Source: Halanaerobiales bacterium (GTDB lineage: Bacteria > Bacillota > Halanaerobiia > Halanaerobiales > Halanaerobiaceae). Taken from it: a stretch of 64,000 nucleotides of DNA. Shown one piece after another: positions 7,555 through 59,047 of the stretch. The position numbers were made by a program, and so were the translations under genes. Numbering within the stretch: position 1 is the stretch's first letter; the number at the start of each line of letters is the position of its first letter. A model generated the notes under the pieces. The model did not search any database, was not told where the DNA came from, and saw only the letters and a list, made by a program, of their open reading frames with translations. The stretch is taken from contig JADQBT010000003.1 of the NCBI GenBank assembly GCA_016278485.1, forward strand, positions 1 to 64,000, written 5' to 3'.

Positions 7555-8823
7555 TCACTTTAAAATACCTGTGATCTGTTCAAGTGAATATCCTTCAGAT
7601 TTTATTTTTAAATTTTTATTTTCCTGATTAAGCATCTCTTTGAACTCTGCGAAAGGTGGAACTAAAGCTTTTGACAACACATAAGTATTAATACCCTGTA
7701 ATGATAAATAAACTGCCTGTGTCATTGCCTTCATTTGACTTAATTCTGGAAATATAGCTACAACCTCTTTATCAACACCATAATGATTAGCAACCTTTTT
7801 AAAAGTAGGTGTAGTAAAACAGCTACCTAAATAGTAGATTGGGTCACTAGCAGAAAAATATTTATTTAGACCCATCGCAGCACATCCACTTGTCAACACC
7901 GTATAACCGGATTGAAGTAAATGCTCTGTTACTTTAAATAATTTATAATCTTGAGAATTCCTTATATTATTACATCCTGCCACTAAAGCTATTTTTTTAG
8001 CCTGCTTAAGCCCAGTTTCGTAATCAGTACTGAATTGAAAATCTAGATTATCGAGTTCACTCATTTCATCACTTTCAATACTATCAATCATCTCTTCCGA
8101 GAAATCATTTTCATAAACAAATGGTATCTCATACTTTTTAGCCAGATTTTTAAGCGCAGGTTTTCCACATCCTGATCCAACTAATAATAAGTCTGGGAAG
8201 TTAGTCATTAATATAAATTCCTGACTTCCATAATTGGTAATCGGTTTAACTCCAGGATAGTAATATTCGTTTAAAAGAGAATATAATGAAATATCATTTC
8301 TTTTCTTTAACTGTTTTAAGGTATTTGCTGATATTAAGCCTGAAAGAACTACTTTCTTTTTGCCAGGTTCAAACTTTGCAGAGATATCTTGCTGATCTTC
8401 TTTTAAATCGAGTTTATCAAAAGATTTTTTTAATAATGTATTTAATTTATTTAATAAAACTGTTCTTTCTAAATTCATACCTCCATTTAACCAGTTATTT
8501 AACTCCCGATATTCTTTATTTAGAGTCCAATCTTCAACTACATAATTGACTGGTGCTAATCCAGATAAAAGCTGAACTGCCAAATTTTCTGTAGCAATAG
8601 TCAAACCATCTCTACCACAGCTTCCATATTTAGCATTGTTTTCAAAAGGATCTATGCGGCAAGGACCTTGCCAACACTTTGTACAACAAAGACCTAGTTC
8701 TCCAAAACCACAATGGGGCAGATTATCTTCATGCATATCCCAGGTTAAATCTATATTTTTTTTCTTTGCTGCAAGAACATATTTATCTGCAAGAGGGTCA
8801 ATTGATTTTTTTCTTATTTTCAT
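7555..8823 (-). CDS. short CooS-like protein (mini-CooS type, Ni-CO dehydrogenase/HCP superfamily)
   Basis: This 422-residue protein aligns to CO dehydrogenase CooS but is about 200 residues short. Cys38, 46, 47, 50, 55 and 69 have the exact spacing of the D- and B-cluster ligands of CooS (39, 47, 48, 51, 56, 70 in Carboxydothermus CODH-II, from memory). Later come Cys219, GCNN Cys284, SGC Cys314 and GSC Cys335, which match only part of the C-cluster ligand set; the region that should hold the C-cluster His and one Cys is shortened. The B/D wire is kept while the Ni-Fe site must differ. CO oxidation is therefore doubtful. It lies between a CooF-like ferredoxin and a flavoprotein. Confidence 0.78.
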   Translation of the reverse strand: MKIRKKSIDPLADKYVLAAKKKNIDLTWDMHEDNLPHCGFGELGLCCTKCWQGPCRIDPFENNAKYGSCGRDGLTIATENLAVQLLSGLAPVNYVVEDWTLNKEYRELNNWLNGGMNLERTVLLNKLNTLLKKSFDKLDLKEDQQDISAKFEPGKKKVVLSGLISANTLKQLKKRNDISLYSLLNEYYYPGVKPITNYGSQEFILMTNFPDLLLVGSGCGKPALKNLAKKYEIPFVYENDFSEEMIDSIESDEMSELDNLDFQFSTDYETGLKQAKKIALVAGCNNIRNSQDYKLFKVTEHLLQSGYTVLTSGCAAMGLNKYFSASDPIYYLGSCFTTPTFKKVANHYGVDKEVVAIFPELSQMKAMTQAVYLSLQGINTYVLSKALVPPFAEFKEMLNQENKNLKIKSEGYSLEQITGILK

Positions 8824-9335
8824 TATTTATTATTCCTCCCTTTTATATATTTTTTAAGATTATTAGAAGTTCGTTTAACTTTTATTTCTCTTAAATCATC
8901 ATTACTTTCTACATATTTTAAAGCGCCAGTTGGACAGGAATCTACACAGACAGGAAAATCCATAAATGTACAAAGGTCACACTTGTCTGCCTTTTTTTCT
9001 TCTAAGACATTAATAGCTGCAAAGGGGCAGACCATTACACACATCCAGCATCCTACACATTTATTTTTATCTATAACCACTTTGTCTGTATTCTTTGTAA
9101 AATATATTGCTCCCGATGGACAAGCTTGATAACAGGGAGCATCTTCACATTGCCTACACTGTACTGGAAGATTTTCCTCGCCATTTGTTTGAACATCAAT
9201 TCTTGATTTTGGAGCAGGACTTTCCAACACGGCTTTAATGAAATCTTTACTTTTAGATACTCTAATCGTAGCACATTGAAGTTCACATGTCTTACAGCCA
9301 ACACATAAATCTATATCAACAAGGATATTTTTCAT
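8823..9335 (-). CDS. CooF-like polyferredoxin, four [4Fe-4S] motifs
   Basis: A 170-residue electron-transfer protein of the CooF/HycB/DMSO reductase-B type. Cys motifs occur as CVGCKTCELQC, CRQCEDAPCYQAC, CVGCWMCVMVC and CDLCTFMDFPVCVDSC, enough for four cubane clusters. The start at ATG 9335 has a clean AAAGGAGA site; an open frame extends upstream but has no ribosome site. It overlaps the start of the CooS-like gene by one base and is the first gene of the operon. By analogy with CooF it should carry electrons to or from the CooS-like protein. Confidence 0.87.
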   Translation of the reverse strand: MKNILVDIDLCVGCKTCELQCATIRVSKSKDFIKAVLESPAPKSRIDVQTNGEENLPVQCRQCEDAPCYQACPSGAIYFTKNTDKVVIDKNKCVGCWMCVMVCPFAAINVLEEKKADKCDLCTFMDFPVCVDSCPTGALKYVESNDDLREIKVKRTSNNLKKYIKGRNNK

Positions 9336-43139: not shown

Positions 43140-44153
43140 TTACCCCCACTTAATCGTAATAGCACTCCAGGCATAACCAATTCCCTCACTAACAAAAGTA
43201 ACGAGATCTCCAGATTTTACCTTACCTTCAATCCGGGCTAAATCTAATGAAACAATTTGATCGTTTTGTCCCATATGACCATAATCTTCTAAGTAGATTG
43301 TCTTGTCTTCAGTCAGATTAAGTTCTTTAACAATAAAATTATGGCTAGCTCGTTTCATATGTGGTACAGCTAAATAATCAAGATCCTGAAGTGTATAACC
43401 ACTCTTTTGCAGAGAATCAATAATTACACTTCTTAAATTCCTAAAAGATATTTCAGCCAATTTTTCAAACATGAAATCTTTATCAACTACATTATAATAA
43501 TGCTCTTTATTCTTAATCGATTCTGCAGTTAAAGGTTTTTTAGTCCCCCCAGCAGGGACAATTACAGTCTCAGCTAAAGAACCGTCATTAATAAATGATG
43601 AACTCAATAGTCTATTTTTTTTGTATGCTTTTTTTATGAGCATAGCTGTACCACTAGCACCCAGGCTATACATAAAACTCAGCTGAGGATTCTGATAATC
43701 AACCAAGTCTCCATTACGATATCCACCGGCCAAGAGCACCATATTAATATTATCATTAGCTCTCATCATATCCTGAGCCAGTTTCATCGCCAAAATTGTC
43801 GTCCCTGAGCCCAAGCCTAGATCGAAAGACCAGGCTTTTACTGCACCAATGTCATATTGCAGTTTTATGCCAGCTGTCCAATTAGGATAATCTTTATATT
43901 CTCCCCCTGTCCAAATTATTAAATCTATATCCTGGGGACTAATTCCAGCTCTTAAAATAGCTCTCTCTGCTGCCCGAGCAGCCATATAACTAACATGGTC
44001 ACGAGGTCCTGGCACAGGTTTTTTCAAAATACCAAATTCTTCTTCAATTACTTTTTTGGAAAGTCCTGTCTCATTAGCGATTTTTTGAGAATCATGAGAG
44101 TGATTGGGCATATATATTCCCAGACTTAAAATTCCTACCTCAAGGTTTTCCAC
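43140..44153 (-). CDS. KAS III (FabH)-like thiolase-fold protein with Ser-His-His triad
   Basis: A 337-residue thiolase-fold protein of FabH length. Where FabH has its nucleophile Cys (DVSAACAG-type) this protein has DLGLGSGTT, giving Ser116. His265 (VPHMKRASH) is kept, and the FabH Asn in YGNTS is His293 (YGHMGQ). It may make or hydrolyse an acyl product by another route or use the fold for ligand binding. It starts with GTG after AAGGAG (11-base spacing) and follows a promoter with tandem TGTAACT repeats. No ACP or fatty-acid genes are nearby. Confidence 0.78.
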   Translation of the reverse strand: MENLEVGILSLGIYMPNHSHDSQKIANETGLSKKVIEEEFGILKKPVPGPRDHVSYMAARAAERAILRAGISPQDIDLIIWTGGEYKDYPNWTAGIKLQYDIGAVKAWSFDLGLGSGTTILAMKLAQDMMRANDNINMVLLAGGYRNGDLVDYQNPQLSFMYSLGASGTAMLIKKAYKKNRLLSSSFINDGSLAETVIVPAGGTKKPLTAESIKNKEHYYNVVDKDFMFEKLAEISFRNLRSVIIDSLQKSGYTLQDLDYLAVPHMKRASHNFIVKELNLTEDKTIYLEDYGHMGQNDQIVSLDLARIEGKVKSGDLVTFVSEGIGYAWSAITIKWG

Positions 44154-44231: not shown

Positions 44232-47200
44232 TTAAGAAATCACTTCTTGAAAGTAGGCTTCAATATCCGCCATTGGATCAACCTGAAGTTCTCTATAAAT
44301 AACATCTTTATATTTATGATATGTCTTAATAGCCATTGACCTGTTTTTCATTTGCTGGTAAGCTTTCATCTTGAAAAAATAAGCCTGTTCCCAACAATTA
44401 TCAATATCTAGAATCTTATTAGCTATTTTAATTGTTCTTTCATATTTTGCTAGTTCAAAGTTATATTCCAACAATTTAGTAGCTGTATTTAAAAATAAAT
44501 TTCTTAATCTTTCTCTCTCATTTCTGGCCCATTCTATATATAAATTGCTAGCTAAAAAATCACTTTCATATAATTCTACAGCTAATTCATAATACTCCAT
44601 TTGATGAGAAAAATCTGATTCATTATTACCATAGGCAATTAACTCTTCAAATTCCTCCACATCATAAATATAACCAGATTTCTCATTAAAACCATAACTA
44701 GAACTTCTTCTTTTTATAAAAAATGGTTTTTGTCTTGGTTTGCGATCAGGTTCAAGTGCTTTTTTGAGGGCATTTAATGTTACCTTAAAATTGCGTTTGG
44801 CAGTTTTCTCATTACTACCAGGCCAGAGCAAATAATAAATTCTTTCTTTTGGTATATACTCTCCTTTTTGAACTAAAAAGAGTAAAAACAACTCTCTGGC
44901 TTTTTCTCTTTGCCATTCTTTAGTAGTAATTTCTTTCTGACCTCGCCAGACCTTAAGGTTACCGAAACTTTTTATATATAAAGAATAACCGGGATGGTTT
45001 TCCGTCTCAGATAAATTTAATTCTTCAATTAACTTTTTAATATAATCAAGATTTGTATCACCATCATAGGCTTCTAACAAGACTGGAGCAAAAATATTAG
45101 GATCCCTAACTCCAAATAGAGTTGGTTTTAAGAATAAATAATCATATCCCCCCGCTTCAGATAATTCAAATAAATCAGTAATATAGAGAGGCAATTGCAC
45201 CCAATCTTCTAGTTGATATGCAATCAAGGATAACCACATTTTAGTAACAGCTAGACAGTAGTTATCATTTGAATTTTTGAAATATTTGCTTGCTTCATTA
45301 AATATTTCTTCTGCTTCCTGTAGATCATTTGCAAAATAATAATTTATACCAATTGATATTTTTAATAAACCTGCTAACCACTCATCCCCTGAGTTTTCAC
45401 TAATTTCAAATCCTTCTTCTCCATATTTTATTCCCTGATAAGGATCACCATAATATCCTTCTACCAGTGCTAATCCCATAAGAGGCTCTGCTTTCCCTCT
45501 ATTTATCTTTAACTTATCAATAATTTCCAAAGCTGATTTATAGGCATTTCGTGCTTTAAATATATTATACCTTCCACTAATTTGGTAGGCATGACCTAAT
45601 CTCATATAAGCTACCGCCTCATTAAAGGGTGATTTAATTTCACAAGGTTGAAGACCCTTCTCAGCAGCTTGTCTAGCCTCTTCCGGCTTACCTTCAAAAC
45701 TTGAAATTAAAGAAAGAATTAGAATTGAAGCTCTATGCGAACGCGGTATTAATGGCCCATTTTTTTCATCATTTATTTTTTTATTAAGCATTTCCTTTGC
45801 TGCTTGCAAACGACCAGTTCTCAACTTAACCCGTGCTTTCAAGTTATTATGAAAGACGTAACTATCACTTAATTTTTCAGCCCTTTTTTGAAAAACCTCT
45901 GCTTCTCGCAACTGGCCCTCATTGGCCTTGTTTTCAGCTAGCAATTTAAGTAAAACAGTTTCTTCCCAAAGATTTTCCTCATCACGCAATTTAATTGCTT
46001 CTTTGAGATAACGATCAGCTTCAGCAGGCTCAATCGTATCCAAATAAACCATCGCCAACTTTTGTAATACTCTGCTCAACTTTAGTTTTTCCCCATTTTC
46101 TCTAAAAAATCTTTCTGCTTTTTGATATATTTTTATTGAAAGATTAAAATTATTCCTCAATCGATACACATCACCAAGATAAATATATAAGTCAGGATAA
46201 GACTGGTATATTTCTTCAGGAATTTCTTCAAGTCCAGCCTGTAATGAATCCAACCTTCCTAGTTTAATCATTTTGTCAGCTGACTCTTCAATTAAGCCAG
46301 CCGCACGATAAAAATCCTTAGATTTTAAACTATGATATATTGCTAAGCCAATAAAATTCAATTCTAAACAAATATCCGCTACTTTTTGATGTAGATCTTC
46401 ACTCGAATATTTTTCGCGAGCCTGATTGCGCAAAAAATCATGAAATAAAGGATTATAACGGTATTCTTGACTACCGTGTTTATGCAAAAAAAGTCCTTTA
46501 TCTACTAATTTTTGTAAAATATCACTACTATTATTAATATTAAGCAATCTATTACAAACTTCTGATTTAAGGTATTTCAAAACAGATGTTTTAATTAAAA
46601 ACTCTTTAATCTGATCTTCATGTTTTTCCAGAACATCATAAGCTAAATATTGAAACAGAATATCAAGCGAACCTGTTTTTAGTGTAAATAGATCTTCAAT
46701 CGGAATACCATTAACTAGGCCATGACCAATTAAATCAAGTCCCATCACCCAGCCTTCTGTTTTTTGCCAGACTCGTTTAATTTGTATTTCATCAAGCTTT
46801 TGCTTATATTTGTTTTGAAAAAAATTTACTATTTCACCTTCAGACAGGGAAAGTAGTTCTTCGGTAATTAATAATACCTTATCTTTAATAATCCAGCGTG
46901 GCCAATCTTTAAAAAGTAATTTTTCTCTACTAGCAATTACTAAATGTAATCTTGGTGGAAGCATATTAATAAAATAAGCCATCAAATGATTTATTTGTTC
47001 ATTATGTGTAAGTAATTGATAGTTATCCAGAACCAAAAAAATATCTGTAGAAACATTTTGTAATAAATTATTAAATAAAATGTCTATAATCTGAAAAAGA
47101 TCTAACTGTGAATCTTCCCCCTTAGTTAAAATTTTTCTTGCCTGCTCAGCTAAATCAGGTTCTTGAAAACTAAAGGCAGATAAAATATTCAACAAAAAAA

Positions 47201-47432
47201 TAGGCGCATCTGTATCAAGTTCATCAATACTATACCAAAAAACTTGCCTATTCTCAATGCGATTAAAATAATATGATAAAACTGTGCTTTTCCCAAAACC
47301 AGGTCCAGCTTTAACAACTGTTAAAGGATAATTAGCAACTTTATTTAATTTATTATTAAGGCCTTGATCAATAAATAGTTCCCCTTTAATCTCGGGGGGA
47401 ATAAACTTTGTCTTCAATACAAGATCTTTCAA
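44232..47432 (-). CDS. MalT/LuxR-type STAND regulator with C-terminal SARP (wHTH-BTAD) output
   Basis: A 1066-residue regulator. The N-terminus follows MalT: FIPPEIKGELFIDQGLN, Walker A KAGPGFGKST (about residues 41-50) and a Walker B VLDNYQLL. TPR-like helical repeats fill about residues 330-800. The last 250 residues hold a winged helix (LPGSNEKTAKRNFKVTLNALKK-like, about residues 870-900) and a BTAD domain ending REWARNE-like to the C-terminus. The DNA-binding part is thus of SARP and not LuxR type. It should oligomerise on ATP and a ligand. It begins at TTG after GAGGTGAT. Likely targets are the genes at 44153 and 47558. Confidence 0.88.
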   Translation of the reverse strand: MKDLVLKTKFIPPEIKGELFIDQGLNNKLNKVANYPLTVVKAGPGFGKSTVLSYYFNRIENRQVFWYSIDELDTDAPIFLLNILSAFSFQEPDLAEQARKILTKGEDSQLDLFQIIDILFNNLLQNVSTDIFLVLDNYQLLTHNEQINHLMAYFINMLPPRLHLVIASREKLLFKDWPRWIIKDKVLLITEELLSLSEGEIVNFFQNKYKQKLDEIQIKRVWQKTEGWVMGLDLIGHGLVNGIPIEDLFTLKTGSLDILFQYLAYDVLEKHEDQIKEFLIKTSVLKYLKSEVCNRLLNINNSSDILQKLVDKGLFLHKHGSQEYRYNPLFHDFLRNQAREKYSSEDLHQKVADICLELNFIGLAIYHSLKSKDFYRAAGLIEESADKMIKLGRLDSLQAGLEEIPEEIYQSYPDLYIYLGDVYRLRNNFNLSIKIYQKAERFFRENGEKLKLSRVLQKLAMVYLDTIEPAEADRYLKEAIKLRDEENLWEETVLLKLLAENKANEGQLREAEVFQKRAEKLSDSYVFHNNLKARVKLRTGRLQAAKEMLNKKINDEKNGPLIPRSHRASILILSLISSFEGKPEEARQAAEKGLQPCEIKSPFNEAVAYMRLGHAYQISGRYNIFKARNAYKSALEIIDKLKINRGKAEPLMGLALVEGYYGDPYQGIKYGEEGFEISENSGDEWLAGLLKISIGINYYFANDLQEAEEIFNEASKYFKNSNDNYCLAVTKMWLSLIAYQLEDWVQLPLYITDLFELSEAGGYDYLFLKPTLFGVRDPNIFAPVLLEAYDGDTNLDYIKKLIEELNLSETENHPGYSLYIKSFGNLKVWRGQKEITTKEWQREKARELFLLFLVQKGEYIPKERIYYLLWPGSNEKTAKRNFKVTLNALKKALEPDRKPRQKPFFIKRRSSSYGFNEKSGYIYDVEEFEELIAYGNNESDFSHQMEYYELAVELYESDFLASNLYIEWARNERERLRNLFLNTATKLLEYNFELAKYERTIKIANKILDIDNCWEQAYFFKMKAYQQMKNRSMAIKTYHKYKDVIYRELQVDPMADIEAYFQEVIS

Positions 47433-49337: not shown

Positions 49338-50042
49338 TTAATCTGTTTTTTGTCCATAATAAGCATTTTCACCATGTTTACGCAAAAAATGTTTATCAAG
49401 TAGTTTACTACTAATTGGAGGAGTAGTATTATCAATTTGTTTAGTATAAAATGCCAAACGAGCTACTTCTTCCAGTACAACTGCATTTTCTACAGCTTTG
49501 ATCGAATTTTCACCCCAAGTAAATGGTCCATGATTATTAACAAGTATTGCTGGCATATTAAGGGGGTCTATTCCTTGCATCTTATCTATAATCAATTGAC
49601 CAGTAAATTCTTCATAATCATTGGCAATTTCCTTATCTTCCATTATTTTAGTACATGGGATTTCTCCATAAAAATAATCCGCATGAGTTGTCCCTAAGGC
49701 TGGAATTCCATTTCCGGACTGTGCCCAAGTAGTCGCCCAGGGTGAATGAGTATGACCGACGCCACCAATTTGAGCAAATTTTTTGTATAGTTCAAGATGT
49801 GTTGCCGTATCTGAAGATGGGTTTAAATCCCCTTCAACCTTTTCTCCTTTTAGATTAACTACTACCATTTTATCTGCTGTTAATTCAGCATAAGGGACTC
49901 CACTAGGTTTAATGACAATCAAATTTCGTTTTCTGTTAATACCACTGATATTACCCCAAGTAAAAGTAACTAAATTATATTTTTTTAATAACTGATTTGC
50001 TTTTAATACTTCTTGTTTTAATAATTCTAGCAAAGGATTCAC
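49338..50042 (-). CDS. araD: class II aldolase/epimerase, L-ribulose-5-phosphate 4-epimerase-like
   Basis: A 234-residue AraD-type protein. It shows TWGNISGINR, KPSGVPY, SSDTATHLELYK, and the metal-binding GHTHSPWATTWAQ and TTHADYFYGEIPC His residues, with VNNHGPFTWG late. It would epimerise or cleave a ketose phosphate at C4. In this operon the polyol dehydrogenase and FGGY kinase would deliver that ketose phosphate, and D-xylulose 5-phosphate is the likely exit. It is the last gene of the operon and overlaps the kinase by 4 bases. Confidence 0.87.
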   Translation of the reverse strand: MNPLLELLKQEVLKANQLLKKYNLVTFTWGNISGINRKRNLIVIKPSGVPYAELTADKMVVVNLKGEKVEGDLNPSSDTATHLELYKKFAQIGGVGHTHSPWATTWAQSGNGIPALGTTHADYFYGEIPCTKIMEDKEIANDYEEFTGQLIIDKMQGIDPLNMPAILVNNHGPFTWGENSIKAVENAVVLEEVARLAFYTKQIDNTTPPISSKLLDKHFLRKHGENAYYGQKTD

Positions 50043-51580
50043 TCCTTTATTTGATGAATCGCTTTCATATTATCTTTAATATTTAAATATATTTCTTTGT
50101 ATTGTTTATAATATTGATCATATATTTTTGTTTTATCTAGGTCTGGCACTATTGCTTCTTTAAAATCTAACCAGTCTATAATAATCTTTGGATCATCAAA
50201 TACACCTACTCCAATACCTGCTAATAATGCATCACCAAGCGGAGCTTCAACATCGTTTTTAATTATACGAACAGGATGACCTGTTACGTCAGCAAATATC
50301 TGTGGCCAAATCGTTGATTTAGAGACTCCACCAACCAAAATAATTTCTTTATCAAGTTTGGCGTCTGTATTGGATACTAACTCCATATTGTGCCTTAAAG
50401 CATATGCAACGCCCTCCATGAAAGCTTTAAATAAGTGTTCGCGTGTATGATATAAACTTAACCCAATAATTGTTCCACGAGCATTACTATCCCAGATTGG
50501 ACTCCTTTCTCCCATGAAGTAAGGTAAAACAAGCAATCCTTCTGAACCTGCAGGAATATCTTTAGCCTTCATTTCCAAAAGTGTATATGCATTTATTTCA
50601 ATCTCATCTTCAAGCGAAAGTTCTAATTTACCAAACTCATCTCTAAACCAGCGAACTAAGGCTCCAGCAGTACTAGATCCACCAAAAGTATAAATCTTAT
50701 TCATAGACTCAATCGAATGTGGCATTGAGACTAAACCCTCGGATAAATTGGCTTTTTCTGTTACAAATCCCCAGCACATTGATGTTCCTGTCATTGCAAC
50801 ATGGTTTCCCTCAGTTAAAGCACCTGCTCCAAGAGTTGCTACTGGAGCATCTACACCACCAGCCATAACAGGGGTATCTGCTGATAGACCAACATATTCA
50901 GCTATCTCTTGTTCCAAGTTAGCCACAATTTCAGTACAACTTACAAGTCTTTCTGGCATAAATTTGTATGGAATACCGAGATCAACCATCATTTCCTCAG
51001 ACCATTTTCTCTTTTTCAAGTCAAAAACACCACCAATATTTCCTGCGGAAGATAAATCAACAGCAATTTCTCCTGTTAATTTGTAAACAATATAATTAGC
51101 AGGTGGAATAAAATGCTTGATCTTTTTCCAAATTTCCGGGTAATTATTCTTAATCCAGAGTATTTTTGTAAAACCGAAATATGAATTAACATGATTACCC
51201 GTAATTTCAAATAATTTATCTAAATCAATATTATTCTTAACCCATTCAACCTCTTTTTCTGCTCTCCGGTCCATCCATATCAAACAAGGATGTAGAGGTT
51301 CATTATTTTTATCAACAGGAATACCAGAACCCCCATAAAGACTACTTACAGCTATTCCTTTAACTGAGTTACTATCAACACCTGATTTTTCAACCACGTC
51401 TTTTATAGTATCTAAAGTTGCTTGCACCCATACATTAGGCCATTGTTGGGCCCAAGAAGGACGGGGTGTCTCTACTTCATATCCCTGATAAGAATGAGAC
51501 AGCACTTTTCCATTCTCGTCAATAAGGACCGCTTTTGTACCCTGTGTTCCAATATCAACGCCAATTAAATAGCTCATCAT
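50039..51580 (-). CDS. FGGY-family carbohydrate kinase (xylulokinase-like)
   Basis: A 513-residue sugar kinase. The N-terminal GVDIGTQGTKAVLIDENGKVL is the phosphate-1 loop, GGVDAPVATLGAGAL and GTSMCWGF are the second phosphate region, and EGVAYALRHNMEL with LVGGVSKSTIWPQIFADVTG is the FGGY C-terminal signature. It phosphorylates a ketose made by the adjacent dehydrogenase. Length fits xylulokinase more than ribulokinase. Substrate not determined. Confidence 0.88.
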   Translation of the reverse strand: MMSYLIGVDIGTQGTKAVLIDENGKVLSHSYQGYEVETPRPSWAQQWPNVWVQATLDTIKDVVEKSGVDSNSVKGIAVSSLYGGSGIPVDKNNEPLHPCLIWMDRRAEKEVEWVKNNIDLDKLFEITGNHVNSYFGFTKILWIKNNYPEIWKKIKHFIPPANYIVYKLTGEIAVDLSSAGNIGGVFDLKKRKWSEEMMVDLGIPYKFMPERLVSCTEIVANLEQEIAEYVGLSADTPVMAGGVDAPVATLGAGALTEGNHVAMTGTSMCWGFVTEKANLSEGLVSMPHSIESMNKIYTFGGSSTAGALVRWFRDEFGKLELSLEDEIEINAYTLLEMKAKDIPAGSEGLLVLPYFMGERSPIWDSNARGTIIGLSLYHTREHLFKAFMEGVAYALRHNMELVSNTDAKLDKEIILVGGVSKSTIWPQIFADVTGHPVRIIKNDVEAPLGDALLAGIGVGVFDDPKIIIDWLDFKEAIVPDLDKTKIYDQYYKQYKEIYLNIKDNMKAIHQIKE

Positions 51581-51595
51581 CTAATTCCCCCAAAA

Positions 51596-52672
51596 CTATG
51601 GTTTTAATAAGACTTTAATAGAATCTTTATTATGCGCTTTATTGAGTGCTTTTTCAAAATCATCTATTTTATATTTTGCTGCTATATAACCCTCTGCAGA
51701 TAACAACTTGCGTTCAAGAAGATCAATTACAACTGGATAAGTGTATGGTCCCAAGTGTGACCCTCTAATATCTAATTCTTTACGATCACCAATTACACTC
51801 CAGTCAGTAGTAGTTTCTTTTCCAAACACACTAAATTCTACAAAAGTACCTAATTTTCTAATCATTTCTAAGCCTTGTTTTACTCCAGAAGGAGAACCAG
51901 TCGCTTCGATATAAACATCACAGCCATACCCATCTGTCAATTCTTTAACTCTCTTAATGGCATCTTCTTCTGTAGGGTTAATCACTAAATCTGCACCATG
52001 TTTTTTAGCTAGTTCCAATCTTTTATTATTGATATCAAGTACAATCAATTTTTTTGGAGTTTTTAACTTGATCAACTGTGTCATACTTAATCCTAATGTT
52101 CCAGCACCAGCTAAAACTACAACATCTTCAAATTCTATTTCAGCACGTTGAACAGTATGAACTGCACAGGCCATAGGTTCAATCAAACTCGCCTCTTCAA
52201 ATGAGATTGCTTCTGGAATTTTATAAATTTTAGAAGTATTACTGATCTTCATATATTCTGCCCATGCTCCATCTGCAACATCTTTTTGAAAGCCATATAT
52301 ATTGTGCACTTCACACATCCAGTATTGACCTCTTTGACAGAATCTACATTCTCCACATGGATTAATTTGATCTGTTGTTACTCTATCTCCAATTTCTACT
52401 TGATGCTTTTCTGCTGCCCCTTCTCCTAATTCAACTACTGTTCCAAAAAACTCATGACCTGGAATTACCGGTGCTTTCATCCAAGGATCATCTCCGCCCC
52501 AATACATGTCTGAACCATGGTAAGCTTTTAAATCACTTCCACAAATACCACAAGCACTTATTTTGATAATTACTTCTTCTTTTCCAGCAACAGGCCTGTC
52601 AACTTCTTCTACTCTAAAATCTTCTGCCTTATACGCTACTACGGCTTTCATTTTCTTCGGTAGATTAGTCAT
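51596..52672 (-). CDS. zinc-dependent polyol dehydrogenase (erythritol/L-threitol dehydrogenase-like)
   Basis: A 358-residue medium-chain dehydrogenase. Catalytic zinc ligands are in CGICGSDL and PGHEFFG, structural zinc Cys in CGECRFCQRGQYWMC, and the NAD site is AGAGTLGLS. The inserted YWGGDDPW segment after the first zinc ligand and the RGQYWMC pattern resemble erythritol/threitol dehydrogenases. It oxidises a polyol to a ketose for the kinase. Tetritol, pentitol or another alditol remain options. Confidence 0.85.
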   Translation of the reverse strand: MTNLPKKMKAVVAYKAEDFRVEEVDRPVAGKEEVIIKISACGICGSDLKAYHGSDMYWGGDDPWMKAPVIPGHEFFGTVVELGEGAAEKHQVEIGDRVTTDQINPCGECRFCQRGQYWMCEVHNIYGFQKDVADGAWAEYMKISNTSKIYKIPEAISFEEASLIEPMACAVHTVQRAEIEFEDVVVLAGAGTLGLSMTQLIKLKTPKKLIVLDINNKRLELAKKHGADLVINPTEEDAIKRVKELTDGYGCDVYIEATGSPSGVKQGLEMIRKLGTFVEFSVFGKETTTDWSVIGDRKELDIRGSHLGPYTYPVVIDLLERKLLSAEGYIAAKYKIDDFEKALNKAHNKDSIKVLLKP

Positions 52673-52686
52673 AATAATTCCTCCTC

Positions 52687-53658
52687 TTATTTTTTCTTTT
52701 TAGAACTGAAATAGATAGCCAATACAATAATTAGACCTTTAAATACCCTTTGTACATAAGGTGAAACCCCAAGTAGATTTAGGCCATTATTTAACACCCC
52801 TAATATTAATGCTCCAATGATTGTACCTATAATACTTCCACGTCCACCTGCAATATCGGTACCACCAAGCACAACTGCTGCAATTGCATCAAGTTCAAAT
52901 CCAATACCAGCCATAGGCTGGCCAGACATCAAACGGGATGTTAAAATAATACCACTTGTTGCTGCAGTAAATCCACTTATAACATAGGCAAAAATTTTAT
53001 ATTTTTTCACCTTAATACCTGATAATCTCACTGCCTCTTCATTACCACCAATTGCATAAATATATCGACCTAAAGGTAATTGGTTTAAAAGCAAATAGGC
53101 AATAGCATAAACAATTAACATTATTAAAACAGGCACTGGAATAATATTAAATAGATAACCTCTTCCTAAAATAGAAAAACTACTTGGCAAACCTGAAAGA
53201 GGATAACCTCCTGTATATAAAAGTGCCAATCCTCTGGGTACTTCCATCATAGCTAGAGTAACAATAATAGGTGGCATTTTAGCAAACGATATTAATGAAC
53301 CATTAATTAAACCAAATAATGAGCCTACTAATAAAGCAAATAAAATTGCTAGTACTGGGTTCCAACCCCAATCCGCCATTGAGGCAGCCATCATCGTTCC
53401 TGATAATGCCATAACAGAACCAACTGAAAGGTCAATTCCTGAAGTAAGGATTACAAATGTCATACCAACAGCTATAATTGCATTAATGGATATTTGTCTT
53501 GCCACATTAATTAAATTCCTTGAAGTTAAAAATTGCTCACTAAAAATTGACATTAAAAGACATAAAACTAAAAAACCAGCAAATGTTAAAAATTCAGGTT
53601 TTTTTATCAATTTTTTTAATCGTACTGATTTACTCTTGTTCTGATTTTGCGCTATCAT
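52687..53658 (-). CDS. sugar ABC transporter permease (RbsC family)
   Basis: A 323-residue permease with eight to ten helices. It has the family features GMTFVILTSGIDLSVGSVMALSG and AVVLGGTDIAGGRGSIIGTIIGAL. Two copies form the channel for the sugar or polyol brought by the binding protein. The ATG at 53658 has GGGGGG in front and overlaps the ATPase gene by 29 bases, suggesting coupled translation. Confidence 0.92.
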   Translation of the reverse strand: MIAQNQNKSKSVRLKKLIKKPEFLTFAGFLVLCLLMSIFSEQFLTSRNLINVARQISINAIIAVGMTFVILTSGIDLSVGSVMALSGTMMAASMADWGWNPVLAILFALLVGSLFGLINGSLISFAKMPPIIVTLAMMEVPRGLALLYTGGYPLSGLPSSFSILGRGYLFNIIPVPVLIMLIVYAIAYLLLNQLPLGRYIYAIGGNEEAVRLSGIKVKKYKIFAYVISGFTAATSGIILTSRLMSGQPMAGIGFELDAIAAVVLGGTDIAGGRGSIIGTIIGALILGVLNNGLNLLGVSPYVQRVFKGLIIVLAIYFSSKKKK

Positions 53659-55156
53659 ACTCTGTCCCCCCGGTCGCATAATACATAATTTCTTCTTGGG
53701 TAATTTGACCTTTATTATCTAATATTGCATTTATCTTACCTTTGTGCATTACCATAATGCGATCACTCACTCCAAGCACTTCTGGTAATTCTGAAGAAAT
53801 CATGATAATAGAAATACCTTCATCTATCAATTTATTCATTAATTTATAAATTTCCACTTTTGCTCCGACATCAATACCTCGGGTAGGTTCATCAAATATT
53901 AGTACTTTCGTTTCTGTACCCATCCATTTTGCCAATACGACTTTTTGTTGATTCCCACCGCTTAAATTTTTTACTTCCTGTTCCATACTGGGTGTTTTTA
54001 TGTTTAGATCATTAATTAACTGAACAACTTTTTGTTTTTCAGTTTTTTTATCTAAAAAAAAGTTTTGTTTTAACAATTTCCTCAAACTTGCTATCGAAAT
54101 ATTTTTTTTCACACTTAAGTCAAGTATTAAACCCTGTGATTTTCTACTTTCAGGTATTAGTCCTATTCCCACTTCGAGAGCATCTGCAGGAGAATTTATA
54201 TCAACTTTTTTTCCCTCAATATTTATATCCTTTTGATATACCTTGTCTGCGCCAATAATTGAACGCACCATTTCTGTGCGGCCTGAACCAACAAGTCCAG
54301 CGACACCTAATATTTCACCACGTCTTAAATTAAAATTAATTTCTGAATCTGATTCGTTCCGTTGTAAACCTATCACCTCTAAGACTGTATCATTTGTGTC
54401 GGTTTCATAATCTCTAGATGGAAAAGCATCCTTAATATCTCTACCAACCATCATTCTTATAATTTTATTTTCATCCAAATTACTAACTTCTTCAGTTCCA
54501 ACCCACTCACCATCTCTTAAACAAGTCAAGCGATCACCTATTTCAAAAACTTCTTCTAAATGATGAGAAATATATATCATGGTAGTCCCATTATCTTTTA
54601 AATTTCTAATCAAATTGAAAAGTAGCTCTGTTTCGTTTTTTGTTAAAGTAGCAGTAGGTTCATCAAGAATTAGAATACTATCATTAATTGATACTGCTTT
54701 AGTAATTTCAATAAATTGTTGCTCTGCAACACTAAGCTGACTTACAGGAACATCTAAATTAATATCAACATCAAGTTTTTTTAATAAGTTTTTTGCTTCT
54801 TTTTTCATTTTCCTTTTAGCTAAAATACCATTTTTTATTATTTCTCTACCCAAAAATATATTCTCAACTGCATTCAAATATGGTATTAAACTAAATTCTT
54901 GATAGATAATACTAATACCTGCATCTTGAGCTTCTTTTGGATTATTAAATTTGACTTCTTCATCATTCATATAAATCAAACCGTTATTCGGTTGGTATAC
55001 ACCAGATAAAATTTTCATCAAAGTTGACTTACCAGCCCCATTTTCTCCAATTAGAACATGTACTTCACCTCTTTTGATGTTAAAACTAACATCATTAAGA
55101 GCTAAAACTCCTGGAAAACGTTTTGTAATATTTTTAATTTCTAAAATATTATTCAA
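53630..55156 (-). CDS. sugar ABC transporter ATPase with two nucleotide-binding domains (RbsA family)
   Basis: A 508-residue double ATPase. The first domain has GENGAGKSTLMKILSG, the RbsA-type signature LSVAEQQFIE, ILILDEPTATL and switch His in YISHHLEE. The second has a degenerate Walker A (GLVGSGRTEM), LSGGNQQKVVLA and LIFDEPTRGID. It powers RbsC. TTG 55156 is the best start, six bases after GAGGTG. Its first domain is the apparent parent of the ABC domain of the histidine kinase at 57188. Confidence 0.93.
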   Translation of the reverse strand: MNNILEIKNITKRFPGVLALNDVSFNIKRGEVHVLIGENGAGKSTLMKILSGVYQPNNGLIYMNDEEVKFNNPKEAQDAGISIIYQEFSLIPYLNAVENIFLGREIIKNGILAKRKMKKEAKNLLKKLDVDINLDVPVSQLSVAEQQFIEITKAVSINDSILILDEPTATLTKNETELLFNLIRNLKDNGTTMIYISHHLEEVFEIGDRLTCLRDGEWVGTEEVSNLDENKIIRMMVGRDIKDAFPSRDYETDTNDTVLEVIGLQRNESDSEINFNLRRGEILGVAGLVGSGRTEMVRSIIGADKVYQKDINIEGKKVDINSPADALEVGIGLIPESRKSQGLILDLSVKKNISIASLRKLLKQNFFLDKKTEKQKVVQLINDLNIKTPSMEQEVKNLSGGNQQKVVLAKWMGTETKVLIFDEPTRGIDVGAKVEIYKLMNKLIDEGISIIMISSELPEVLGVSDRIMVMHKGKINAILDNKGQITQEEIMYYATGGTEYDSAKSEQE

Positions 55157-55176
55157 AATAGACACCTCATTTTGAG

Positions 55177-55255: not shown

Positions 55256-56173
55256 TTACCAGCTAAATCCTTCTGCAGTTTCATCATTTAATAGCTTTAC
55301 TTCAACAGGTACATGAGCTGGTATTTTTTCTGCGCCCCAATATTTAGCTAAAGCAATACCAAGACCAATTCTTACCTGATCACGAGGGAACTGAGCACTT
55401 GTTGCTTGAAAAATATCTCCATTCAAAATAGCTTCTACAGCTTCTGGGTGTCCATCAACACTATACAGATAAACATCCTTGCCTGAACTCTGAATAGCAG
55501 CTAAGGCACCAAGTGAACCTGTATCATTTACACTAAAAATTGCATCTAAATCAGGATTAGCTTGTAACATGTTTTCAACAACAGACATTGCTTTAGCTCT
55601 TTCTTGACGACCATTTTGAACATCTACAATTTCAATATCTGCATATTCTTCCATAGCTGCTTTAAATCCTCTTACACGTTCAAGGATAGGCACAACAGGA
55701 ATACCATCTAAAATTGCTACTTTTCCTTTACCATCAATATCTTTGGCCATTTCCATTCCGGCTTTATAACCAGCATCATAGTTTTTTGAACCTACAAAAG
55801 AGTCTAATGGTCCATTAGCTTGTGCATCAATTGCAACAACAATTACTCCGGCTTCTTTAGCTTCTATTACTGCAGTTTCAATACCAACTGAATCTGCTGG
55901 GTTCAAGAGCAGAACATCAATACCTTTCATAATCATATCTTCAATGTCACTAATTTGCTTATTTACATCATGACGAGCATCAGTATAATATACTTTAGCA
56001 CCAATTGAATCTGCTGCTTCAAGGAGCGCTTCTTTCATAACTATAAAATACTGATTATTCATTTCCTGAAAAGCCATACCTATTACTAGTTCATCATCAT
56101 CCTGAGCTAATCCAATACCACTAAACAAAGTAATCACCAAAGATAAAGCTAATAATATTACTAATTTTTTCAA
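55256..56173 (-). CDS. sugar/polyol ABC transporter substrate-binding protein (RbsB family)
   Basis: A 305-residue type-I periplasmic binding protein. The signal peptide MKKLVILLALSLVITLFSG ends near GLAQDD with no lipobox Cys. The mature protein starts GMAFQEMNNQYFIVMKEALL and has the hinge region typical of ribose-type proteins (AIDAQANGPLDSFVGSKNYDAG, SVNDTGSLGALAAIQ). It starts at TTG 56173 with AGGAGG. It is first in its operon and lies after the hexaloop leader, so its expression should be set by antitermination. Confidence 0.93.
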   Translation of the reverse strand: MKKLVILLALSLVITLFSGIGLAQDDDELVIGMAFQEMNNQYFIVMKEALLEAADSIGAKVYYTDARHDVNKQISDIEDMIMKGIDVLLLNPADSVGIETAVIEAKEAGVIVVAIDAQANGPLDSFVGSKNYDAGYKAGMEMAKDIDGKGKVAILDGIPVVPILERVRGFKAAMEEYADIEIVDVQNGRQERAKAMSVVENMLQANPDLDAIFSVNDTGSLGALAAIQSSGKDVYLYSVDGHPEAVEAILNGDIFQATSAQFPRDQVRIGLGIALAKYWGAEKIPAHVPVEVKLLNDETAEGFSW

Positions 56174-56341
56174 AATAATAACCTCCTGATTTTTTTTGAA
56201 TTTTGCTATTTAAATCATAATACTTGGAATAATTATGAATTTATAAGCTTATTATATTCCGGAAGAATTAGGATTTACACCCCCCTTATCTATGACTCTT
56301 ATAATCTTGTAAAAAATGCAAATTTGTTTAAAAATAATTAA

Positions 56342-56406
56342 AAGCCTTGCATTATATTTCTTCACCCTAAAGATAAACTTCGGATAAGGAATATAATGCA
56401 AGGCTT
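56342..56406 (-). terminator. conditional terminator in the polyol ABC operon leader
   Basis: Minus-strand bases 56406-56390 pair perfectly with 56358-56342 (17 bp, AAGCCTTGCATTATATT with its complement). The loop of 31 bases can form a small inner stem. The downstream tract UUUUAAUUAUUUUU is U-rich but broken. Its 5' arm shares bases 56406-56400 with the second hexaloop hairpin, so only one of the two can form. Confidence 0.82.
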
Positions 56407-56448
56407 CTTCGCCTTTAAAATAATGTACCACCATCAGCACATTATTTT
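56400..56448 (-). promoter_or_regulatory. tandem hexaloop hairpins, candidate ANTAR binding site and antiterminator
   Basis: First hairpin: minus-strand AAAATAATGT (56448-56439) pairs with ACATTATTTT (56426-56417), extended by GU, CG and UG pairs to a hexaloop GAUGGU. Second hairpin: AAGGC (56415-56411) pairs with GCCTT (56404-56400) around hexaloop GAAGAA. Both loops have G at position 4, as in known ANTAR sites, but G and not A at position 1. The hairpins are nearly contiguous and the second overlaps the terminator. Confidence 0.72.
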
Positions 56449-56475: not shown

Positions 56476-56504
56476 ATTATAAACTAACAAGTAGCAAAAA
56501 TCAA
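56476..56504 (-). promoter_or_regulatory. sigma-A promoter of the polyol ABC operon
   Basis: On the minus strand TTGATT (56504-56499) and TATAAT (56481-56476) are 17 bp apart. Transcription would start near 56469, about 20 bases before the first hexaloop hairpin. Confidence 0.75.
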
Positions 56505-56583: not shown

Positions 56584-57165
56584 TCAATTTAAATAATCAG
56601 CCATTTTTAATATTTTTTTGGCTATTTCCACTAATTTCATATTTTTAACTTGACTCTTTTTTTGTAAATGCTTCATTGCCTCAGCCTCAGAAAGGGATAA
56701 AGTTTCCATGAGTATCCCTTTAGCTTTTTCAATAAATTTTCTGTTTTCTAGAGCTAGTTTTGTATTATTTAATTCACTACTAAGGAACTCAAATTCTTTA
56801 AATCTTTGCATTGCAACTTGTATAGCTGGTTTTAATTCATTAATTTCAATAGGCTTAACTAAATATGCAAAAACTCCTACTTGGCTTGCCTTCCTAATTA
56901 ATTCTGTATCAGAATAACCAGTTACAATAATACTAGGTATTACTATCTTTTCATTAATCTTTTTAATAGCCTCTATTCCATCAAGATAGGGCATATTAAT
57001 ATCAATAATAATTAAATCAGGACTCTTTTCAAGTGCAAGTTCTACTGCTTCTTTACCATTCATAGCTTCTCCAACTATTTTATGGCCTAATTCTTCCAAA
57101 TTTGCTTTGATACCCATCATCACCAGATATTCATCTTCAGCTAGTAATATTTTTAATTTATCCAT
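56584..57165 (-). CDS. response regulator with ANTAR RNA-binding output domain
   Basis: A 193-residue regulator. The receiver domain starts KILLAEDEYLVMMGIKANLEELG; the phosphoacceptor is the Asp in LIIIDINMPYLDG, with the Thr/Lys pair in VTGYSD and LVKPI. Residues about 120-193 are an ANTAR domain (RKFIEKAKGILMETLSLSEAEAMKHLQ with IAKKIL). ANTAR proteins bind paired hexaloop hairpins and stop terminator formation. ATG 57165 follows AGGAGGG; the longer frame would overlap the kinase. It lies right after its kinase and right before a leader of the expected kind. Confidence 0.92.
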   Translation of the reverse strand: MDKLKILLAEDEYLVMMGIKANLEELGHKIVGEAMNGKEAVELALEKSPDLIIIDINMPYLDGIEAIKKINEKIVIPSIIVTGYSDTELIRKASQVGVFAYLVKPIEINELKPAIQVAMQRFKEFEFLSSELNNTKLALENRKFIEKAKGILMETLSLSEAEAMKHLQKKSQVKNMKLVEIAKKILKMADYLN

Positions 57166-57187: not shown

Positions 57188-59029
57188 TCAACTAAATGGA
57201 ATGATAACTTTAACTTCCGTACCATTATTATTACATATTGCTATCTCACCTTTGAATTCATTCGTAATAATTGAATATACAATATTCAAACCGAGAGATA
57301 ATGACTTTTCTAAATTAAAATTTTCTTTTATTCCTATACCATTATCTTTGATAATTAAAACTACTTTGCCATTATCATTATAACATAATATCTCAATTTT
57401 ACCTTTTTTCCTACCTTTAAAAGCATGTTCATAACAATTAGCTACTAGCTCATTAATAATTAAAACAATAGTAGTTGCTTTATTATATGGTATAAATATA
57501 TCTTCCAAATCAAGTATAATAACAATATCTTTATCAAGAGCTGGATAAGATGCAAATTTGAGTACTTTATTTACAATTTCTTTTAAATTTATAATACTTC
57601 TTCCCATTTCATCTTGCGCTAAGAGATCATGAACAGCTGCAATACTTTTAATTCTAGCCATAATATCATCAAGAATATTCAATACTGAATTATAATCAAT
57701 ATCCTTATTTATAAATTGTTTTTGGATTGAAACTAAACCAATAATGGACTGTAAATTATTTTTAATACGATGATGGCTTTCTTGCAAAAGAGCGGAACGT
57801 CCCATTAATCTAGTATCTTCAATAGCAATCGCGGCTTGTCTAGCAAAAGTTGATAAATATTTCCATTCCCGTTCAGAATATATATATATCTTATTATAGT
57901 ACAATTGTATTACACTTGCTAATTGAGTACGAATTAAAACTGGAGCAAAAATAACAGTTTTGACTCCTTGACTCTTATTTTTAAAAATAGTTTGAAAATC
58001 TTTATCTCTTTCAGTAGTATAATAAAATTTATTATTTTTTACAATTGAAAAAACTTTATCATTTTTTAGCTCAGGCACACTATTATTTTTCTTCTTAAAA
58101 TTGACCTGATCAATAATAGTTTCAGTCTTTTCGTCTATCAAATTAATTACACAACTATCTGCTCCCATAATTTTTGTCACATGTTCTGCTAAAAATATCA
58201 AAACATCTTTTAATTCATATTCAGATGTTAAAAATTCAGCTGCTTTAAAGATTGAGTCAAGTACTTCAGGAGCTTCATCACCACTGCGTTCTATTCGATT
58301 ATCATAAATACCTAAAAATAAATTTAATAAATTTTTAGGATTCTTTTTAGCCTGTTCAGAATCAAGCACACCAGCCAGTTTACCTTTTGTAAGCACAGCA
58401 ATTTTATCAGCAACTTTTAGAGCCTCTTCCCACTGTTTAGTTACATATATTACTGTCTTACCATTTTTCTTGAATTTATCAATTATTTTATATAACTTTT
58501 GAATTGTATCTACACTCAAATCAGTTGTTGGTTCATGTAACACCACAACTTCTGGGTCTCTCATGAATAATTTTACTAACTCAATAACTTTCTTCTCTTC
58601 TGGTGTTAAATTACTTACAATTTCATCTTGATTAATTTCAATATCAAAATAATTCAAATATTTCTCTGCTTTCTTATTAACTTTTCTCCAGTTAATAAAT
58701 GGCCATACTTTAAATGTCGGAAAACTAATTAAAGATAAATTTTCTGCAACAGATATTTTATTTACTAATGATGATTTTTCAAATACAAATGCAAAATTTC
58801 CATCACGCAACTCTTTACTTAAAACAACTCCTTTATATAATAGTTGCCCTTGATAATCATCAATAATTCCAGATAAGACATTAATAAAGGTAGTTTTACC
58901 AGACCCAGTTTCACCTACTAAGGAAAAAACTTCTCCTTCTTTTATCTCTAAATCAATATCAGATATAATGGTCCATTTTTTATCAAAAGTTGTCAACTTA
59001 TCTATTTTAAAAATAATATTAGCATCCAT
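57188..59029 (-). CDS. histidine kinase with degenerate ABC-ATPase sensor domain, GAF and HisKA_2/HATPase
   Basis: A 613-residue fusion. Residues 1-240 resemble the first ATPase domain of RbsA: Walker A GETGSGKT (39-46) is intact, but the Q-loop Gln is Glu84, the signature is NLTPEEKK (140-147), Walker B reads VVLHEPT with His165 for Asp, and the switch His is Lys198 (YVTKQWEE). A GAF domain follows (about 255-405), then the HisKA_2 box SHHRIKNNLQ (phospho-His about 420), the N-box ELVANCYEHAF and G-box DNGIGI. It is cytoplasmic, with no membrane helix. ATG 59029 follows AAGAAGG. It should phosphorylate the adjacent ANTAR regulator. Confidence 0.92.
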   Translation of the reverse strand: MDANIIFKIDKLTTFDKKWTIISDIDLEIKEGEVFSLVGETGSGKTTFINVLSGIIDDYQGQLLYKGVVLSKELRDGNFAFVFEKSSLVNKISVAENLSLISFPTFKVWPFINWRKVNKKAEKYLNYFDIEINQDEIVSNLTPEEKKVIELVKLFMRDPEVVVLHEPTTDLSVDTIQKLYKIIDKFKKNGKTVIYVTKQWEEALKVADKIAVLTKGKLAGVLDSEQAKKNPKNLLNLFLGIYDNRIERSGDEAPEVLDSIFKAAEFLTSEYELKDVLIFLAEHVTKIMGADSCVINLIDEKTETIIDQVNFKKKNNSVPELKNDKVFSIVKNNKFYYTTERDKDFQTIFKNKSQGVKTVIFAPVLIRTQLASVIQLYYNKIYIYSEREWKYLSTFARQAAIAIEDTRLMGRSALLQESHHRIKNNLQSIIGLVSIQKQFINKDIDYNSVLNILDDIMARIKSIAAVHDLLAQDEMGRSIINLKEIVNKVLKFASYPALDKDIVIILDLEDIFIPYNKATTIVLIINELVANCYEHAFKGRKKGKIEILCYNDNGKVVLIIKDNGIGIKENFNLEKSLSLGLNIVYSIITNEFKGEIAICNNNGTEVKVIIPFS

Positions 59030-59047
59030 ATCATAACCTTCTTTCAT

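Follow-up and report, generated by a model that had tools for sequence, protein, structure and literature searches.

A soluble histidine kinase with a degenerate RbsA-type ATPase domain as putative sensor of a sugar importer probably controlled by antitermination in Halanaerobiales

We describe a two-component system of a Halanaerobiales bacterium that we are inclined, by a modest preference, to read as one that tracks a transporter and uses antitermination to control its own importer. Support is good for the output half: we hold it very likely that a kinase/regulator pair controls the transporter operon by antitermination. The input half is a degenerate ABC-ATPase domain at the N-terminus of the kinase. 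Whether this domain senses the transporter by contact is evenly poised in our judgement, and its docking on the permease is something that we infer. The window, i.e., the whole stretch of DNA that we analysed, has 64,000 nt (assembly GCA_016278485.1, contig JADQBT010000003.1, positions 1 to 64,000, forward strand). The kinase and its parts are as follows:

57188..59029 (-): sensor histidine kinase of 613 aa, ABC-like + GAF + HisKA_2 + HATPase_c (ORF and Pfam)
58310..59029 (-): degenerate ABC-ATPase sensor domain of the RbsA N-domain type, residues 1-240 (profiles, alignment, tree, model)
58889..58915 (-): Walker A motif GETGSGKTT, residues 39-47, intact (sequence and homologue alignment)
58535..58537 (-): Walker B Asp replaced by His165, catalytic Glu166 kept (sequence and homologue alignment)
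58436..58438 (-): switch His replaced by Lys198 (sequence and homologue alignment)
57818..58213 (-): GAF domain, residues 273-404 (Pfam)
57194..57781 (-): HisKA_2 (ESHHRIKNNL) and HATPase_c kinase core (Pfam)

The start at the ATG of position 59029 is favoured over the in-frame ATG at 59047 by an AGAAGG seven bases 5' of it. Pfam profiles match ABC_tran at residues 23-169 (E = 1.7e-21, 77.7 bits), HisKA_2 at 417-491 (54.7 bits, cut-off 22.3), and HATPase_c at 518-612 (36.1 bits, cut-off 26.4). With its phospho-acceptor domain, its HATPase_c domain, and the intact motifs ESHHRIKNNL, NELVAN, DNGIGI, and SLGLNIV, the protein is a HisKA_2 sensor histidine kinase. We found no transmembrane segment in it (maximum 19-residue hydropathy of 1.51), and the kinase is predicted to be soluble.

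The best curated ABC models for the first domain are nearly all of two-domain sugar importers, matched over their N-terminal domain, and include XylG-type, AlsA, AraG, and RbsA models (1e-34 to 3e-29). The tree that we built comprises 27 ABC domains of kinases and 28 domains of transporters (midpoint-rooted, for drawing only). The kinase domains form one clade (100/99) whose nearest rows are RbsA N-domains; the RbsA C-domains form a separate clade. In the AlphaFold model (14-sequence alignment) this domain has an ABC fold, with pLDDT mostly of 80-91, and solved ABC ATPases match it with a TM of about 0.8 by target length. The placement of the domains in the full-length model is uncertain (pTM 0.43). 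Profile, fold, and tree position thus agree on an ABC fold of the RbsA N-domain lineage. A sequence-only reading of the region had proposed an RbsA-like ABC ATPase domain of about 240 residues at the N-terminus. Pfam, the curated models, and the tree bear this out, and the fold that the proposal implied is present in the model and matched by solved structures.

The changes listed in that reading relative to the neighbouring RbsA can all be seen in the protein: a Q-loop Gln to Glu84 substitution, those of Walker B and the switch, and an intact Walker A. The signature motif is LTPEEKK, and its counterpart in the RbsA N-domain, LSVAEQQ, is likewise non-canonical. An active ABC ATPase has a Walker A Lys, a Walker B Asp, a catalytic Glu, and a switch His; the window protein has K45 and E166 but H165 and K198. 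We counted these residues by eye in 31 aligned homologues. The Walker A Lys is kept in 15 and lost in 16 of them, and the Walker B Asp is kept in 6 and lost in 25, with His as the most frequent replacement. The switch His is lost in 30/31 and kept only in L038, a distant and otherwise canonical member, which is also the single homologue (1/31) with all four residues. As family traits, therefore, the losses of the switch His and of the Walker B Asp stand, whereas Glu84 (the closest relative has Gln) and the intact Walker A are not general. Because the Walker A Lys is lost in half of the family and all checked residues are kept in 1/31, the ABC domain of these kinases is, as judged from its residues, a pseudo-ATPase. 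Some homologues without Walker A still pass the Pfam cut-off for the ABC domain; by the same alignment, catalysis has decayed and the fold has been retained.

The pattern of conservation points in the same direction as a role in protein docking would. At Walker A (residues 41-49), the kinases have a mean identity of 0.27 and the RbsA proteins one of 0.95; over the ABC domain the two values are 0.30 and 0.48. The stretches conserved in the kinases are those after the Q-loop (0.36), around Walker B (0.40), at the catalytic Glu (0.93), and in the WEEA helix that follows the switch (0.53). In MalK, the coupling helix of the permease is received by a groove of which the segment after the Q-loop is a part, and the conservation of this segment in the kinases would fit a docking role. 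The earlier proposal that the domain binds nucleotide and does not hydrolyse it may hold for the window copy, but it cannot be a shared mechanism because half of the family lacks the Walker A lysine. We rejected nucleotide sensing as a general mechanism, since Walker A decays across the kinase family.

The architecture had been thought rare or undescribed. It is not a one-off: the 31 homologues of our comparison come from Halanaerobiales, other Bacillota, and Bacilli, and all of them retain the ABC domain (31/31); "undescribed" stands for the open-access literature that we searched. The same protein is present in 14 of the 121 related genomes searched, the window genome included, mostly as open frames of 615-690 aa. 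Further members, distant ones included, were identified among 399 genomes sampled evenly across the phylum. A scan of public genomes added members in Halalkalibacter, Mesobacillus, Gracilibacillus, Fredinandcohnia, Christensenella, Butyricicoccus, Claveliimonas, and Faecalicatena, and in several metagenome genomes. The same gene set recurs in Halanaerobiales, other Bacillota, and Bacilli. The genome G025 carries more than one ABC kinase copy, and its copies adjoin different Rbs-type operons. In the tree, these copies group with homologues of other genomes that have the same kind of operon as a neighbour: L039 falls with the window type, and L031 with the Halanaerobium-family clusters L033 and L037.

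Two members of the family are damaged. The third G025 copy (L039 7184-8970) is broken, its frame ending shortly after the start of HisKA_2, and a fragment of the operon dehydrogenase comes next, as would result from a deletion of the genes for the regulator and the transporter. In the homologue of G019 (L027 7566-9419, L122), the ABC domain is interrupted by an in-frame TAG stop; the surrounding cluster is otherwise intact.

Next to the kinase, the window encodes a response regulator, an RNA leader, and a transporter operon:

56584..57165 (-): response regulator with receiver and ANTAR RNA-binding domain, ANTAR at 56608-56760 (Pfam)
56476..56504 (-): sigma-70-type promoter of the transporter operon, TTGATT-17-TATAAT (sequence)
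56422..56446 (-): ANTAR-type hairpin P1, core U-G-AUGGU-G (covariation and covariance model)
56400..56415 (-): ANTAR-type hairpin P2, its 3' arm lying within the terminator 5' arm (covariation and covariance model)
56330..56404 (-): intrinsic terminator with arms at 56390-56404 and 56344-56358 and a U-rich tract after them (folding)
55256..56173 (-): RbsB-like sugar-binding protein (Pfam and curated models)
53630..55165 (-): RbsA-like double ABC ATPase (Pfam and curated models)
52687..53679 (-): RbsC-like permease (Pfam and curated models)
51596..52672 (-): zinc-type alcohol/polyol dehydrogenase of the operon (Pfam and curated models)
50039..51580 (-): FGGY pentulose kinase of the operon (curated models)
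49338..50042 (-): L-ribulose-5-phosphate 4-epimerase of the operon (curated models)

The regulator exceeds the Pfam cut-offs for both Response_reg (91.4 bits) and ANTAR (63.7 bits), as befits an ANTAR response regulator. Since the two genes are adjacent and the genome has a single ANTAR protein and a single HisKA_2 kinase, both at this locus, the kinase and the regulator are very probably a cognate pair. The zinc dehydrogenase, the FGGY kinase, and the L-ribulose-5-phosphate epimerase encoded in the operon make a pentose or a pentitol the likely substrate of the importer. Elsewhere in the window, 44232-47432(-) encodes a 1066-residue protein that, by eye, resembles a MalT/STAND-type NTPase with an extended region of repeats and a SARP/BTAD-like C-terminus. 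A FabH/HMG-CoA-synthase-like gene (43140-44153) adjoins it, and the two may be a separate regulatory pair.

An Rfam scan of the leader region gave nothing above the gathering score, and for this reason the motif was identified by comparison among the leaders of homologous clusters. Several leaders escaped a regular-expression search for tandem hairpins, and we used a covariance model in its place. The order promoter-P1-P2-terminator is common to most leaders of homologous clusters, most of which have a similar promoter 5' of P1. In the window, the hairpins (at least 3 bp each, 56400-56446) are separated by a linker of about 6 nt, i.e., they have the tandem arrangement of ANTAR RNAs. The terminator overlap of such RNAs is also present, as the 3' arm of P2 (56400-56404) lies within the 5' arm of the terminator (56390-56404). 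The terminator form has the lower fold energy (-46.5 versus -38.0 kcal/mol with P2 formed), so termination would be the default. The leaders of L029, L030, and L032 are long (about 900 nt), with an extra P1-like hairpin 5' of the P1-P2 pair and further hairpins 5' of the transporter gene.

The pairing is strongly supported by covariation. Across 21 aligned P1-P2 elements, 86.9% of the cells are paired, compared with 73.0% in shuffles, a control that ignores kinship, and with at most 50% in slid structures, a control that allows for kinship but for which the structure was drawn from the same sequences. The covariation score is 0.528 versus 0.248 in shuffles, and none of the 500 shuffles scored as high. 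By eye, position 1 of the loop core is A in 42/42 loops, the third base is always G, and position 4 is G in 30/42 and A in 12/42; the window has G4 in P1 and A4 in P2. With the U-G pair closed, the A becomes the second base of the loop, and the register thus depends on this closure. The published rule for ANTAR RNAs is one of hexaloops with A1 and G4 (PMC3369931, PMC8164766). The P1-P2 element fits this rule in part and is, by its loops, ANTAR-type and not a strict member.

The covariance model finds one site in the window genome at E up to 0.5, and this site is in the leader (37.3 bits, E = 1.8e-5). In most kinase-bearing relatives the best match is at the kinase/transporter locus. Whole-genome searches of G351 and G402, which are distant and have the kinase, gave no significant match, and none of 10 genomes lacking the kinase has a match better than E = 0.2. 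Several elements were recovered outside the set used for the model. The one in G042 (L161, 45.6 bits) lies directly before an RbsB-RbsA-RbsC operon, at the end of a contig that appears to continue the broken kinase contig. Weak elements (16-20 bits) in L047, L128, and L129 are correctly placed before transporter genes. In L042, a second element (8820-8867(+), 47.0 bits) lies directly 5' of the kinase gene, which suggests that the kinase is autoregulated in this organism. A weaker element in L049 (8133-8190(-), 25.7 bits) precedes a divergent gene and may be an additional target of the regulator.

We then compared loci of at least 6 kb with adjacent genes for a HisKA_2 kinase and an ANTAR regulator. 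The stretch fetched for each locus includes a gene for an RbsC-type permease in 27/27 loci whose kinase has the ABC domain and in 0/40 loci whose kinase lacks it (Fisher p = 2.4e-19; L026 was scored positive via its companion contig L161), a comparison confounded by descent in that the ABC kinases are one clade and the controls are mostly from other phyla, chiefly Chloroflexota. Four Bacillales controls likewise lack an RbsC permease. A link of L057 to an amino-acid-type importer was rejected because an RbsC-type permease lies on its other side. Together with the kinship to RbsA N-domains, these counts give strong genomic support to the core idea of the sequence-only reading, that of an ATPase-mimic sensor tied to the neighbouring transporter. 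The linkage alone would also arise from a pair that merely regulates that operon. Beyond the kinase core, distances between ABC domains correlate with those between RbsA proteins (partial correlation 0.37, p = 0.002) and between permeases (0.28, p = 0.01), and the kinase core tracks neither of them beyond the ABC domain. We give this test little weight because the response regulator, a control, correlates with the permease beyond the kinase as well (0.28, p = 0.0175).

In the mechanism that we propose, the pseudo-ATPase domain would recognise the RbsABC-type importer from the cytosol, and the most likely dock site would be the permease groove used by RbsA. Two ABC domains would be present in a kinase dimer, as many as in one RbsA. 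Through the GAF linker, kinase activity would follow the occupancy or the working state of the importer, and the phosphorylated ANTAR regulator would bind P1 and P2 in the transporter leader. This would hold P2 formed and, because the terminator needs the 3' arm of P2, block termination and allow read-through into rbsB-rbsA-rbsC and the pentose/polyol genes. Phosphorylation-driven binding of P1-P2 and the block of the terminator are proposed on the precedent of EutV/EutW; phosphotransfer, RNA binding, importer docking, and the direction of the signal are all putative here. The more specific scenario, in which the two pseudo-ATPase domains of a dimer compete or alternate with RbsA on the permease so that occupancy leads to phosphorylation and antitermination, is conceivable, if a little short of an even chance.

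Other roles of the ABC domain can be envisaged. It could be a scaffold or a dimerisation remnant of an old fusion, with the GAF domain as the real sensor, which would read a sugar or a metabolite of the cytosol. Binding of small ligands is common among GAF domains, GAF/PAS sensors occur in the PdtaS-type HisKA_2 kinases whose partners are ANTAR regulators, and the ABC domain is the least conserved part of the kinase (mean identity 0.33, versus 0.41 for GAF and 0.49 for the kinase core). We nevertheless regard this as unlikely: the domain is kept in 31/31 homologues, in some of them above the Pfam cut-off despite the loss of Walker A, and it is tied to an RbsC-type permease in 27/27 loci, although a pure scaffold need not track one transporter class; kinase/ANTAR pairs without the domain have 0/40 such transporters nearby. 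Tracking of one transporter family is also something that an energy sensor would not need. That the domain binds ATP/ADP and reports the adenylate state to the transporter operon would suit the intact Walker A of the window protein, the Lys in 15/31 homologues, and the highly conserved catalytic Glu, but it is made very improbable by the loss of that Lys in 16/31 and by a Walker A identity that is lower than the mean of the domain (0.27 versus 0.30) and far from that of RbsA (0.95).

The domain might, instead of docking on the permease, pair with RbsA in a mixed nucleotide-binding sandwich and may also throttle transport directly. The window copy has the intact Walker A for it, and the C-domain of RbsA could supply the signature motif. 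Such a sandwich needs the Walker A that half of the family has lost, and we consider it improbable. The slightly better tracking of RbsA than of the permease (0.37 versus 0.28) would favour it, but RbsA and permease distances are correlated at 0.95 and the two are inseparable.

Several known systems resemble this one in part. PdtaS is of the HisKA_2 type and has GAF/PAS sensors; we know of no ABC domain in PdtaS/PdtaR and of no transporter linked to it. The kinase of BceABS senses in which working state its ABC transporter is, and BceS-type kinases are membrane proteins bound to a different class of ABC transporter. To our knowledge, most transporter-linked kinases contact the transporter within the membrane. 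The BceABS ATPase (PDB 8g4c) is among the structure matches of the window ABC domain; unlike in BceABS, the window kinase is soluble and carries its own copy of the nucleotide-binding domain. The association of a cytosolic kinase with an ANTAR regulator is shared with PdtaS/PdtaR of Mycobacterium (PMC8131098). A transporter-derived domain is shared with the SLC5/STAC histidine kinases (CbrA, CrbS), but these fuse a whole membrane symporter domain, whereas the window kinase has the ATPase subunit of an ABC importer (PMC9100948).

EutW/EutV, the ethanolamine two-component antitermination system of Enterococcus faecalis, also consists of a histidine kinase and an ANTAR regulator with a dual-hairpin RNA overlapping an intrinsic terminator (PMC3369931), and phosphorylation-dependent antitermination is the expected logic for the window system too. 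The window system differs in its sensor (ABC-ATPase-like domain and GAF), in its target (an RbsABC-type importer operon in cis), and in its loops (A-N-G-R, not strict A1/G4). There is no ethanolamine or nitrogen link, the downstream genes being those of a sugar importer, a dehydrogenase, a pentulose kinase, and a ribulose-5-phosphate epimerase. The available text of a study of actinobacterial ANTAR RNAs predicts such RNAs in sugar-uptake transcripts, often overlapping ribosome-binding sites or start codons, and reports no ABC-domain kinase (PMC8164766). Our search of the open-access literature found no published account of a histidine kinase with an ABC-ATPase-like sensor. ANTAR two-component antitermination was already known, ANTAR RNAs had been predicted near sugar transporters of actinobacteria, and transporter-derived domains had been described in kinases; new, within the literature searched, is the ABC-ATPase-like domain as an unusual input to an ANTAR-paired histidine kinase.

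Earlier ANTAR targets in Bacillota were described as mainly nitrogen genes (PMC3369931), and the system described here gives ANTAR regulation a clear carbohydrate role in this phylum. With one kinase, one regulator, and one RNA, the window cluster is simple for bench testing. It combines, within a small and portable gene set, a pseudo-enzyme with putative transport sensing and with antitermination at the RNA level. In this family, the sensor appears to be a transporter subunit that has been copied and disarmed, so that the input could be the state of a protein and not a ligand.
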